From Clostridia bacterium (GTDB taxonomy: Bacteria; Bacillota; Clostridia; Oscillospirales; CAG-272): a stretch of 64,000 bases of DNA. The notes beneath the pieces are model-generated. The model was given only the letters and a program-made list of their open reading frames with translations, searched no databases and was not told where the DNA came from. The position numbers were made by a program, and so were the translations under genes. Below, one piece after another: positions 31,850-35,577 of this stretch (the first letter of the stretch is position 1; each line of letters begins with the position of its first letter). The DNA is taken from NCBI GenBank assembly GCA_017937845.1, contig JAGBCV010000064.1:1-64000 (forward strand). The letters run 5' to 3'.

Positions 31850-32584
31850 TTATTGGTCATATTTCAAGATAAAATCGATGATCGGCGCAGGATCCGCAAG
31901 ACCGTGAGGATGATGATCACAGCCCACCTTGCCAAATACCGCAAGGGGAACACTCGTCTGTCTGTATGCCTTTTCCAAAACGTAGCCGTTTTCGGGATAC
32001 GGCACGACCGTATCGCTATCACCGTATACCATGACGACGGGTATCTGATGCTCGATCAGCATCGGGATCTTATCGATCGGATGACCGCGGAAGCCAATCA
32101 GCTCCGAGCGCGTCATACCGAGCGCATCGAGAACCTCCTTATACTGCGCCTCTCCGCAATTCACAACGCAATCGCCCATTCCAAACGGCCAGCTGAGAAA
32201 ATTCATCACAGGCGCATCCAAATACAAAACGCTGACCGCATCGGGATATTTCGCCGCAAACCCCACCGCCTGCAAGCCGCCGCAGCTCATGCCGACGGGA
32301 ACACATTTTGCCGAAACTCCATAGGCTTCCCGCAAGTATTTCGCAAAACGCATCTTGGCATCGGTGTCGATATCCGTGCCGATGCGATTGACGTTTTTGA
32401 GATATGCCAAATGATATCCACGGCGCAAAAGCTGTATTTCCAATGCAGGAAATGCACCGAAATACTCAGTCTTCAGCATCCAATGCGATGTTTTCACATC
32501 CTCAGGCGGAAAAATCAGCGTCGCATATCTGCCCTCAAATTCAAATTCGATTTGACGAAATTCGTCCTTCCATAGCTTTTCCAT
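31850..32584 (-). CDS. Alpha/beta hydrolase
   Basis: The 244-residue protein has the nucleophile elbow VGMSCGGLQAVG (Ser), an Asp in VYGDSDTVVPY and a His in GCDHHPHGL, giving a full Ser-Asp-His triad. There is no signal peptide. The fold resembles prolyl-oligopeptidase-like or xylan-esterase-like hydrolases, but the substrate cannot be judged. ATG 32584 is preceded by CGAGGGG. It is transcribed alone, convergent with nanA. Confidence 0.78.
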   Translation of the reverse strand: MEKLWKDEFRQIEFEFEGRYATLIFPPEDVKTSHWMLKTEYFGAFPALEIQLLRRGYHLAYLKNVNRIGTDIDTDAKMRFAKYLREAYGVSAKCVPVGMSCGGLQAVGFAAKYPDAVSVLYLDAPVMNFLSWPFGMGDCVVNCGEAQYKEVLDALGMTRSELIGFRGHPIDKIPMLIEHQIPVVMVYGDSDTVVPYPENGYVLEKAYRQTSVPLAVFGKVGCDHHPHGLADPAPIIDFILKYDQ

Positions 32585-32638
32585 AGTCAAAACCCCTCGC
32601 TATCATGATAACGTTCGTGAGGCGCGCCCACCGATATC

Positions 32639-32667: not shown

Positions 32668-32701
32668 GGAAGAACGAAAAAAGACAACATCATCCATTTT
32701 T

Positions 32702-32721
32702 TCAAAAAGTATACTTTTTGA
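32702..32721. promoter_or_regulatory. 20-bp perfect palindrome upstream of the GT4 promoter
   Basis: TCAAAAAGTA / TACTTTTTGA, centred on GTATAC. It lies about 35 bp upstream of the -35 box at 32757, with the same core as the palindrome downstream of the promoter. It is a probable operator. Confidence 0.65.
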
Positions 32722-32756
32722 TTTTAACAAAAATTTCATAAAATTTCATGTTTTTA

Positions 32757-32785
32757 TTGACTTTTTATACTGTACGATGTATAAT
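32757..32785 (+). promoter_or_regulatory. Promoter of the GT4 operon
   Basis: TTGACT (32757-32762), 17 bases, TATAAT (32780-32785), placed between two related palindromes. Confidence 0.8.
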
Positions 32786-32799
32786 TATCGATAAATTCC

Positions 32800-32831
32800 G
32801 AACTATCAAAAGGTATACCTTTTGATAGTTC
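32800..32831. promoter_or_regulatory. 32-bp perfect palindrome downstream of the GT4 promoter
   Basis: The left arm GAACTATCAAAAGGTA is followed at once by its exact reverse complement. It starts 14 bases after the -10 box, so it covers the transcription start or early leader. There is no T-run, so it is not a terminator. A repressor operator is the simplest reading. Confidence 0.7.
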
Positions 32832-32863: not shown

Positions 32864-33988
32864 TTGAAAAAGGTCTTGTTCGTTGCCAATGTTTTGAGAA
32901 AGCATATTTATCCATTTCATATGCCGTTTCTCAAAAAGTTGAAGGAAGAAGGCTATGAGGTCCATGTGGCTGCCGATAACGACGCGAATGATGAAGAAAT
33001 TCGTTCCGTTTGCGACGTTTATTATAATGTACCGTTTGCGCGTTCGCCATTTGACCCGCGAAATTTGAAAAATTATTGGATATTAAAGCGTTTGATGGAA
33101 CGGGAACACTTTGATATCATACATTGTCATACACCGATTGTATCCGCGCTCGTGCGATTTGCTTGTAAAAAGGTACGCAAAAACGGCACGAAAATCCTAT
33201 ATACAGCGCATGGCTTCCATTTTTATAAGGGTGCGCCTCTTTTGAACCGAATGTTGTATTATCCCATTGAAAAGCTCTGCGCTAAGCAAACCGACGTTCT
33301 CATTACCATCAACACCGAAGACTTTTCATTGGCAAAAAGAAAATTAAGCGCGAAAAATGTCGAATTTATCCCGGGTGTGGGCATCGATATCGCGCATTTT
33401 GCAAAAGACACCGATAACAAATCTCAAATACGAAAAGCTCTTGGCGTTCCGATGAACGCTTTTTTGTTGCTTTCTATCGGTGAGCTTTCCAAAAATAAAA
33501 ATCACGAGATTCTGATTCGCGCCTTGGCAAAGCTGAAAAATGAGGACATTCACCTACTGATTGCGGGCGAAGGGATATTACAGAAAAAATTGATGCGTTT
33601 GTCAAAACGATTCAAGGTCGACAAACAGATCCATTTTCTTGGCTATCGCTATGATATCGCAACGCTTTGTCATACGGTTGACCTTTACGCACATCCCTCT
33701 TATCGGGAAGGCTTGCCCGTTGCCTTGATGGAAGCGATGGCAAGCGGACTTCCCGTCGTTTGCTCCGATATCCGAGGCAATCGGGATCTCATCGACGAAA
33801 ACGGCGGCATACGCTGTGCGCCGTATGATGCCGACGCCTTTGCGAGAGCGATCGACTTCCATATACAAAATCCCGCGCTTTCTCAAAAAGAGGGAGAATG
33901 TAACCGTCAAAAATCGCTTAACTACGAAAAAGACGGCATCGACCGCGCCGTTTTGGAAATTTACCGACGCATGGAGGTATCGGTATGA
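32864..33988 (+). CDS. Glycosyltransferase family 4, first gene of the operon
   Basis: This 374-residue GT-B retaining transferase resembles EpsD/capsule type enzymes. The N-terminal acceptor domain begins KKVLFVANVLRKHIYPFH and contains DIIHCHTPIVS and TAHGFHFYKG. The donor domain has LLSIGELSKNKNHE and the E-x7-E motif YREGLPVALMEAMASG with IRGNRDLI. The start is TTG at 32864, preceded by AAAGGA; an ATG ten bases earlier is out of frame. It overlaps the next transferase by four bases. The likely role is adding two consecutive sugars in a surface glycan. Confidence 0.85.
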   Translation: MKKVLFVANVLRKHIYPFHMPFLKKLKEEGYEVHVAADNDANDEEIRSVCDVYYNVPFARSPFDPRNLKNYWILKRLMEREHFDIIHCHTPIVSALVRFACKKVRKNGTKILYTAHGFHFYKGAPLLNRMLYYPIEKLCAKQTDVLITINTEDFSLAKRKLSAKNVEFIPGVGIDIAHFAKDTDNKSQIRKALGVPMNAFLLLSIGELSKNKNHEILIRALAKLKNEDIHLLIAGEGILQKKLMRLSKRFKVDKQIHFLGYRYDIATLCHTVDLYAHPSYREGLPVALMEAMASGLPVVCSDIRGNRDLIDENGGIRCAPYDADAFARAIDFHIQNPALSQKEGECNRQKSLNYEKDGIDRAVLEIYRRMEVSV

Positions 33989-35010
33989 AGATTTTGCATC
34001 TGCTCAGCAGTGACCGCTTCAGCGGTGCGGAAAACGTCGCCTGCGCCATCATGCAAATGACACGTGATAAGGTCGAAAGCGTATATTGCAGCCCCGAGGG
34101 ACCGATTCGCAAGGCGGTAGAAGAGAAAGGATTCACTTTCGTTCCGCTATCATCGATGTCGGCTCTCTCCCGTATTTTACGCGAAGAAAAGCCTGACCTC
34201 GTTCATGCACACGACGTTCGTGCGAGCCTTGCCGCCTCACTTTTTTGCGGAAAGATCCCTTTCGTTTCGCATATTCACAGCAATTCACATGGCGCAAACC
34301 GTTTTTCTATCAAATCCTGTTTATATTTGCTTTCCGCGATGCGTGCAAAGCATATCCTTTGGGTCTCTCAAAGTACGTTTGACAGCTATTATTTTCATCG
34401 ACTTTTGCAAAAGAAAAGCTCCGTTTTGTATAACGTCATCGATATCCGAGCCGTACGGGAGAAAATGCAGACCGATACGAACATATATCCTTATCATATC
34501 GTATACGTCGGTCGTTTGACGTATCAAAAGAATCCGCAAAGGTTGGTAAACGTGCTTTCACAAGTGGCTTCTTGTAAGCCCGATGTCAAGGTCGCCATTG
34601 TCGGCGAGGGCGATCTGCTGGAGGAAACACAATCCCTTTGCAAAGAAATCCATTTGACCGACAACATCGAGTTTCTCGGATTCATGGAAAATCCGCTAAA
34701 GCTCGTCCGCGATGCCAAGGTGATGGTCATGACCTCGCGCTTTGAAGGTACCCCCATGTGTGCGCTGGAAGCCTTGGCGCTTGGTACGCCGATCGTCAGC
34801 ACGCCCACAGACGGACTTTGCGAGCTGATCGAAAACGGCAAAAACGGTTACCTTTCCGAAAAAGATGAGGTGCTTGCCGAGCATCTTCTGTCGCTCATTT
34901 GCTCACCCGAAAAGCAAATCGCGTTTTCTGAGGAAGCCAAGCGCCGTTCTGCAATATACAATGATTTTCGAGCGTATCGGGAGAAGATCACAGAGATTTA
35001 TTTCCGATAA
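33985..35010 (+). CDS. Glycosyltransferase family 4, second gene of the operon
   Basis: This 341-residue GT-B transferase starts MKILHLLSSDRFSGAENVA (acceptor-side Gly-rich loop) and continues with PDLVHAHDVRASLAA. The donor domain has IVYVGRLTYQKNPQRL, VAIVGEGDLLEE, and TSRFEGTPMCALEALALGTP (E-x7-E). ATGA overlap with the first gene shows tight coupling. No polymerase, flippase or priming transferase is next to it, so the pair may modify a glycan built elsewhere, possibly by the murJ/ligase operon (inference). Confidence 0.87.
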   Translation: MKILHLLSSDRFSGAENVACAIMQMTRDKVESVYCSPEGPIRKAVEEKGFTFVPLSSMSALSRILREEKPDLVHAHDVRASLAASLFCGKIPFVSHIHSNSHGANRFSIKSCLYLLSAMRAKHILWVSQSTFDSYYFHRLLQKKSSVLYNVIDIRAVREKMQTDTNIYPYHIVYVGRLTYQKNPQRLVNVLSQVASCKPDVKVAIVGEGDLLEETQSLCKEIHLTDNIEFLGFMENPLKLVRDAKVMVMTSRFEGTPMCALEALALGTPIVSTPTDGLCELIENGKNGYLSEKDEVLAEHLLSLICSPEKQIAFSEEAKRRSAIYNDFRAYREKITEIYFR

Positions 35011-35070: not shown

Positions 35071-35481
35071 TTAAGCCGTAGCCGTCGTGGTGTTTTCCGT
35101 CGTAACGGCGGCGACAGCAGCCGGGGCTTCGGCGGGCTCGCCAAGCCCAAAGCTGATGGTGATGGCGTTATTGACCTTTTGCATAAGTACGTCATCGATA
35201 TGACCCATTTTTTCGCGCAAGCGTGTTTTGTCAATGGTGCGTATCTGTTCAAGCAAGATGACGGAATCCTTGACAAGTCCGAAGCGCTCGGCATATACGT
35301 CGATATGCGTGGGTAATTTGGCTTTTCCAAGACGGCTGGTGATGGCGGCGGCGATCACCGTGGGGCTGTAACGGTTACCAACGTCGTTTTGTACGATCAG
35401 AACCGGACGAAGTCCACCTTGCTCGCTGCCGACAACGGGACTGAGATCCGCATAGAAAATATCTCCGCGTTTGATGGTCAT
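35071..35481 (-). CDS. mazF: MazF/PemK-type endoribonuclease toxin
   Basis: In this 136-residue protein, residues 1-115 are the full MazF/NdoA fold: [33 protein letters not shown] (Arg), [10 protein letters not shown] (Ser/Thr), LPTHIDV and [12 protein letters not shown]. Such enzymes cut mRNA at short motifs. A tail of about 22 residues rich in Ala, Thr and Glu ([14 protein letters not shown]...) exceeds the usual length. ATG 35481 is selected over an earlier GTG. No full-length antitoxin gene adjoins it; only a 29-codon reading frame lies just upstream. Confidence 0.9.
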
Positions 35482-35487
35482 TTTGCT

Positions 35488-35577
35488 CACTCTTTCTTTT
35501 TCAGAACTTGATTCGGAAGAGGCGTATCTGCGCTTTCCATTCTTATTCTTTCCATTTTTTCATCCTTTTTAATCATG
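35488..35577 (-). CDS. Possible short peptide upstream of mazF
   Basis: A minus-strand frame of 29 codons ([20 protein letters not shown]...LKKKE) ends with TGA six bases before the mazF ATG. An internal ATG ([10 protein letters not shown]) has AAGGATG ahead of it. The peptide is charged and lacks an HTH or RHH fold, and is shorter than any known MazE. It may be a leader peptide, an antitoxin remnant or chance. Confidence 0.3.

Follow-up and report, generated by a model that had tools for sequence, protein, structure and literature searches.

Paired palindromes around a glycosyltransferase promoter in a Clostridia bacterium as likely inversion sites of a small serine recombinase

In the window, i.e., the whole 64-kb stretch (64,000 nucleotides) that was analysed, two overlapping genes encoding GT4 glycosyltransferases are preceded by a sigma-A promoter lying between two palindromes, and an alpha/beta-hydrolase gene diverges on the other side (Table 1). 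A MazF/PemK-like toxin gene (35071-35490, minus strand) converges on the glycosyltransferase operon at its far end. The earlier note had described two perfect palindromes with a common core and no T-run, bracketing a good sigma-A promoter, and all of these elements were re-found: the left palindrome (20 bp, half-length 10), the right one (32 bp, half-length 16), their common core, and the promoter. A terminator at the palindromes was also considered and rejected, as none was detected. The third-longest perfect palindrome of the 64-kb window measures 16 bp. Markov-2 simulation of the window (20 runs), used as the chance baseline, gave maximal half-lengths of 7 to 11 and a palindrome of at least 20 bp in 5 of the 20 runs, indicating that the 20-bp palindrome alone could be due to chance, whereas the 32-bp palindrome is improbable by itself, which bears out the earlier view that its symmetry is very unlikely to be accidental. 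Among 59 genomes, a glycosyltransferase match at E<=1e-60 was obtained in eight, including the window genome itself, and no close relative of the window operon was found, the best other glycosyltransferase match having 47% identity.

Table 1. Features at the glycosyltransferase locus (window positions)
Feature	Position	Strand	Remark
Alpha/beta-hydrolase gene, divergent, would face the flipped promoter	31850..32590	-	
Candidate promoter of the divergent hydrolase, TTGACT-17-TACGAT, outside the segment	32639..32667	-	9/12, near chance level
Left crossover site (proposed), TTTTCAAAAAGT-AT-ACTTTTTGATTT, 12-2-12	32699..32724	.	Contains palindrome 32702-32721; half-sites TCAAAA 6/6
Proposed invertible segment, 104 bp centre to centre	32712..32815	.	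Deduced from the site pairing
Sigma-A promoter TTGACT-17-TATAAT, inside the segment, towards the glycosyltransferases	32757..32785	+	11/12
Right crossover site (proposed), CTATCAAAAGGT-AT-ACCTTTTGATAG, 12-2-12	32803..32828	.	Inside palindrome 32800-32831; half-sites TCAAAA 6/6
GT4 glycosyltransferase gene 1, TTG start	32864..33988	+	
GT4 glycosyltransferase gene 2	33985..35010	+	4-bp overlap with gene 1

A 106-nt RNA fold including the right palindrome gave a hairpin of -29.3 kcal/mol (z -5.5) at the start of the likely mRNA, and this hairpin may stabilise the glycosyltransferase mRNA. The same strong prediction would fit an element acting purely at the RNA level, in which the right palindrome is only a 5' leader hairpin with a role in stability or attenuation, the left palindrome being there by accident. 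We give this reading next to no credence, considering that the promoter is located downstream of the left copy, that the pairing recurs at all three places in the genome described below, and that no Rfam family was matched at gathering score. A riboswitch or other known RNA was likewise discarded, Rfam returning two microRNA models only, both far below their gathering scores.

The exact core AAAARGTATACYTTTT occurs at three places in the 2.25-Mb window genome (G000), two of these inside the window. The genome scan for the core palindrome that the earlier note had suggested thus gave three exact places, and wider patterns resolved three promoter-flanking pairs: five sites differ by at most two mismatches from CAAAAGGTATACCTTTTG, a gapped arm pattern yields a sixth, and the six form pairs in the window and on contigs C6 and C65, with centres 104, 157, and 116 bp apart, respectively. 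Each pair encloses a sigma-A promoter. At C65, where the left centre is GT and the right site is GTGTAAAAAAAT-AC-ACTTTTTGATAG, the promoter (TTGACA-17-TATAAT) is directed towards a 48-codon frame and a BspA-type leucine-rich-repeat protein, and at C6 the promoter (TTGACA-17-TAATAT) is directed into a terminator-like hairpin followed by a TMEM164-family gene. The 48-codon frame (L015, 5490-5633) has a strong ribosome-binding site and is situated between the pair and the BspA-type surface protein. In addition, a fourth, degenerate pair on C43 (L012, 1401-1522; right site 20373) has AG/CT centres 96 bp apart and a promoter outside the sites, and it is possibly an invertible or a decayed leader.

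Beyond this genome, TCAAAANGTRYACNTTTTGA matched in six of the 395 genomes of the family and the reversed control in none. The sites are paired in G003, G159, G314, and G363, each of which has at least one locus where a pair adjoins a serine recombinase gene (product ~200 residues) at its 3' end; G321 carries a single exact site and lacks such a recombinase. Recombinases of this subfamily (E<=1e-40) were detected in 44 of the 395 genomes, including five of the six that are palindrome-positive. In G159, the recombinase-proximal site at one locus (L036, 998-1154, contig C23) overlaps the last codons (KKYTF) and the stop of the recombinase gene. Two further G159 loci (L027 and L040, contigs C12 and C36) have near-identical pair-bearing upstream regions before different signal-peptide-like genes, with the promoter directed away from the gene in both.

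The window genome encodes seven resolvase-domain proteins, among which P0001 (208 residues, G000:C42) is the sole small one, with 57-66% identity to the four palindrome-linked recombinases. P0001 is unlinked to the window sites and has no adjacent site pair in this genome. All five proteins matched the PF00239 catalytic domain at 91.8-106.9 bits (cut-off 23.3), and Ser10, Arg8, Arg45, Arg68, and Arg71 are invariant in the five-sequence alignment; these are the catalytic serine and its accompanying arginines in gamma-delta resolvase numbering. Small serine recombinases are expected to end in a helix-turn-helix of ~50 residues; helix-turn-helix models matched at E<0.001, below the curated cut-off, in two of the five proteins and did not match P0001 at this level.

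To survey the linkage more broadly, genome contigs were scanned with the recombinase, and the best 80 of 565 relatives were retained as loci. Pairs were searched between 100 bp before and 700 bp beyond the point where the recombinase match ends, the strict filter demanding 12-2-12 sites around GT-NN-AC with self-complementarity of at least 8/12 and pair similarity of at least 15/24, the centres not being used. In these best 80 of 565, strict pairs were found at 39 loci (shuffled sequence, 0) and relaxed pairs at 48 (vs 0.15 in shuffles), and 32 loci had no pair even under the relaxed filter. The centres of 37 of the 39 strict pairs are reverse-complementary and asymmetric (GT/AC 28, AC/GT 5, AA/TT 2, and AG/CT 2) and the other two are symmetric AT/AT, with none direct or mismatched. 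Among the relaxed pairs, 45 are inverted, two symmetric, and one mismatched (GT/CC at L119, ~500 bp from the gene). A linked pair is also present in Hominisplanchenecus murintestinalis (L079), a cultivable commensal. Of 30 loci obtained by the family search, some on contigs shared with the 80-locus set, 15 had a pair, all matched. The tree and the half-site analyses were based on 62 loci, a set that excludes near-duplicate recombinases, L119, and loci at which no recombinase frame was recognised; L105 is an N-run artefact. On this quick 62-recombinase tree, which has many weak branches and from which L119 had been excluded beforehand, the centre type changed about nine times, with both sites matched each time. 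As serine recombinases require identical 2-bp overlaps (accessible part of PMC11607074), matched inverted centres are the signature expected of strand exchange between inverted sites.

Paired ends that recur within one genome at spacings of ~100-160 bp could also belong to a small non-autonomous mobile element, of which the pairs would be remnants. This origin appears highly improbable, given that the inner sequences of the three pairs in the window genome are unalike except for the promoter (compared by eye, unscored), that resemblance to another locus is confined, among the 39 segments, to the four-MAG group and a single weak pair, and that the pairs hold a fixed place between the recombinase and its next gene. 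Homologues of the recombinase were also found in 496 plasmid records and five phage records; the four plasmid loci read carry no site pair, and an AT/AT pair is present at one of the two phage loci read. A lone exact site occurs in 20 viral contigs, mostly without a partner. Three near-identical viral-classified contigs from three metagenomes (L173, L174, and L258) have a pair before a zinc-ribbon-like frame, and two of them were also retrieved with the recombinase. Two phage contigs (L251, 5834-6093; L252, 4694-4879) are related and each carry a single TCAAAAAGTGTAC site, and they differ by an adjoining stretch of ~60 bp.

The sites vary together with the DNA-binding end of the recombinase. 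Across the 62 loci, half-site distance correlated with the distance of the C-terminal DNA-binding segment (r=0.63), and this correlation held with the catalytic domain removed (partial Mantel 0.59); neither value was reached in 2000 permutations. The corresponding value between half-sites and the catalytic domain, with the C-terminus accounted for, was 0.04. Recombinases with an F-YRR (29 loci) or F-YRK (six loci) helix have half-sites near TCAAAA (means 5.66 and 5.46 of 6, respectively), and those with F-RYR (seven loci) have half-sites resembling TTACAGAAA (ACAGAA-like), which score 3.46 of 6 against TCAAAA. The nine of 62 rows without a helix call also have TCAAAA-like half-sites (mean 5.44). 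The helix of P0001 reads ATFYRRLRQYR and all four half-sites of the window match TCAAAA at 6/6, and we infer that P0001 is tied to the window sites because its F-YRR helix and their TCAAAA half-sites agree.

Spacing and promoter direction are also patterned. Among the 39 strict pairs, the distances between centres fall into clusters at 106, 115, 125-127, 135-139, 145-148, 156-160, and 165-169 bp, with further spacings at 177 and, once, 223 bp. The circular mean length near 10.5 bp was 0.74, unequalled in 5000 jittered sets, and 0.69 with the 48 relaxed pairs; spacings following a period of ~10.5 bp suggest that the sites tend towards one helix face. The 104-bp spacing of the window is slightly off the 106-bp class. 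A promoter score of at least 10 was obtained for 46% of the 39 segments vs 8.6% of shuffled segments. The better promoter is directed towards the recombinase in 32 of the 39 (away in four, ties in three), and the next gene, often beginning 25-120 bp past the pair, is oriented away from it in 39 of 47 loci, one more locus having no frame. With the promoter pointing towards the recombinase and the next gene away, most reference assemblies would be in the OFF orientation. The promoter direction at the window and at C65 predicts the ON orientation for both. Furthermore, the genes directly behind the recombinase-linked pairs at L086 (961-1200) and L107 (3285-6455) match phage-defence models (TIR-like PDC-S66 and HKD+Snf2, respectively), suggesting that defence genes may be phase-variable via such pairs.

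The evidence also has to be weighed against paired operators, in which a dimeric repressor, or a recombinase that does not exchange strands, binds both palindromes and loops the promoter shut. The earlier note had proposed cooperative repression of this kind, and two symmetric sites about ten helical turns apart around a promoter are compatible with it; helical phasing would suit looping too. Moreover, the flipped orientation was found neither in the four rabbit MAGs, whose segments and flanks were blasted among the 80 loci, nor in the three viral contigs with alignable flanks, L106/L169, or the two G159 copies (11 genomes of the G159 genus searched), so that relatives with alignable flanks yielded no flipped copy, which is the chief gap in the case for inversion. 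Contig ends close to the sites were weighed as a possible indication of heterogeneity, an argument that was dropped because they are about equally common on the other side of the gene. Nevertheless, paired operators are rather unlikely and looping is not the best reading: a repressor needs no matched, inverted centres, for which reason strand exchange is preferred, the gene adjoining the pairs is a serine recombinase, and the half-sites track its DNA-binding helix. The earlier proposal that a factor acting at the palindromes switches the glycosyltransferase operon on and off is therefore supported in outline, and its repressor gives way to a recombinase as paired sites adjoin serine recombinase genes. 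DNA inversion is thus the more likely mechanism than repression, and a static repressor loop is possible at the window locus alone.

The palindromes and their pairing, the enclosed promoters, the linkage to recombinases elsewhere, the matched centres, the phasing, and the co-variation of site and DNA-binding domain are all computed observations, and on their strength we hold with considerable confidence that the two palindromes are inverted, hix-like sites at which a small serine recombinase acts, and that they enclose a 104-bp invertible promoter of the GT4 genes. The acting enzyme is probably the unlinked P0001 of the same genome, which would work in trans on at least three promoters. P0001 dimers would bind both palindromes and then form a tetramer, which would cut at the central AT and rejoin the strands after rotation, the cut-and-rotate mechanism being established for serine recombinases (accessible part of PMC11607074). 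Flipping of the 104-bp segment in this species would turn the promoter towards the glycosyltransferases or towards the hydrolase. In the assembled orientation the promoter would drive the two GT4 genes (ON), and in the flipped orientation it would face the hydrolase and leave the operon without a strong promoter (OFF or low). Because the AT centre is symmetric, polarity is lost at the window pair; its AT/AT centres are compatible with inversion, and slow or mixed outcomes are possible. Symmetric hixC is reported to show better binding and 16-fold slower inversion (accessible part of PMC2427008). Another recombinase of the window genome, either a tyrosine or a large serine enzyme, could invert the segment instead, considering that P0001 is unlinked to the sites, that six more resolvase-domain proteins are present, and that the invertases tied to Clostridia invertons elsewhere are tyrosine recombinases (accessible part of PMC11892184). 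We judge this improbable, since none of the other six resolvase-domain proteins is small and the helix class of P0001 goes with TCAAAA sites.

On balance, we lean towards a wider reading of inversion, in which a widespread Clostridia family of small serine invertases flips mini-promoters whose sites lie on one helix face, the recognition helix predicts the half-site, and the enzymes can serve promoters beside their own gene as well as distant ones, phase-varying surface glycans, BspA-type proteins, and phage-defence-like genes. The family would also include cases from one MAG each of Erysipelotrichaceae and Synergistaceae and from viral contigs. Should this reading hold, many uncultured Clostridia of gut and rumen would have a simple phase switch that is recognisable from one assembly by two palindromes whose centre dinucleotides are matched and inverted. 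Having the recombinase, its site code, and the gene under control together would then make heterogeneity in glycans, surface proteins, or defence directly testable, and the family would supply compact serine invertases with separable site specificities.

A description of this family was not found in the literature as represented by titles and the starts of abstracts, subscription papers lying mostly outside reach, nor does it appear in the accessible parts of a review (PMC11868660) and a genome-wide survey (PMC5903667); some of the loci may already figure in earlier catalogues of invertons. In the accessible text of a gut-community study (PMC11892184), the Clostridia inverton group most strongly tied to an invertase group pairs with a tyrosine recombinase, and the phrase "serine recombinase" is absent. 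RecV and other tyrosine invertons act on invertible promoters or leaders of Clostridia surface genes (accessible parts of PMC5903667 and PMC11892184), but they belong to another recombinase superfamily, the genes linked here being serine recombinases. Sin/Tn552-type resolvases are close in sequence, with 2r0q as the closest solved sequence to P0001 (E=1e-28) and plasmid homologues ~51% identical; in contrast, a Mu-type transposase gene is the neighbour of two of the four plasmid homologues read, and a site pair is absent from all four. The 12-2-12 crossover sites resemble those of Hin/hix in Salmonella, a system that also includes a Fis-bound enhancer, of which no counterpart is known here. 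Symmetric hixC has its TATCAAAA arms and central AT in common with the window sites. In E. coli, a short promoter placed between hixC sites is inverted by Hin (accessible part of PMC2427008), and the hin gene is located inside its own segment (accessible part of PMC5903667), whereas the recombinase gene here is outside the segment or unlinked, the segment is only ~0.1 kb, and the 104-bp window segment contains no gene. Mpi, the serine master invertase of surface-polysaccharide promoters in Bacteroides fragilis, acts in trans on scattered promoters of surface functions (accessible part of PMC4747536), similar to the action in trans on several scattered surface promoters proposed here. The NCBIfam Mpi model NF009949 matched all five proteins at 42-53 bits, far below its cut-off of 272. 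Unlike Mpi, the system described here lies in Clostridia, its sites are near-perfect 26-bp palindromes, and the related recombinases often directly adjoin a pair.
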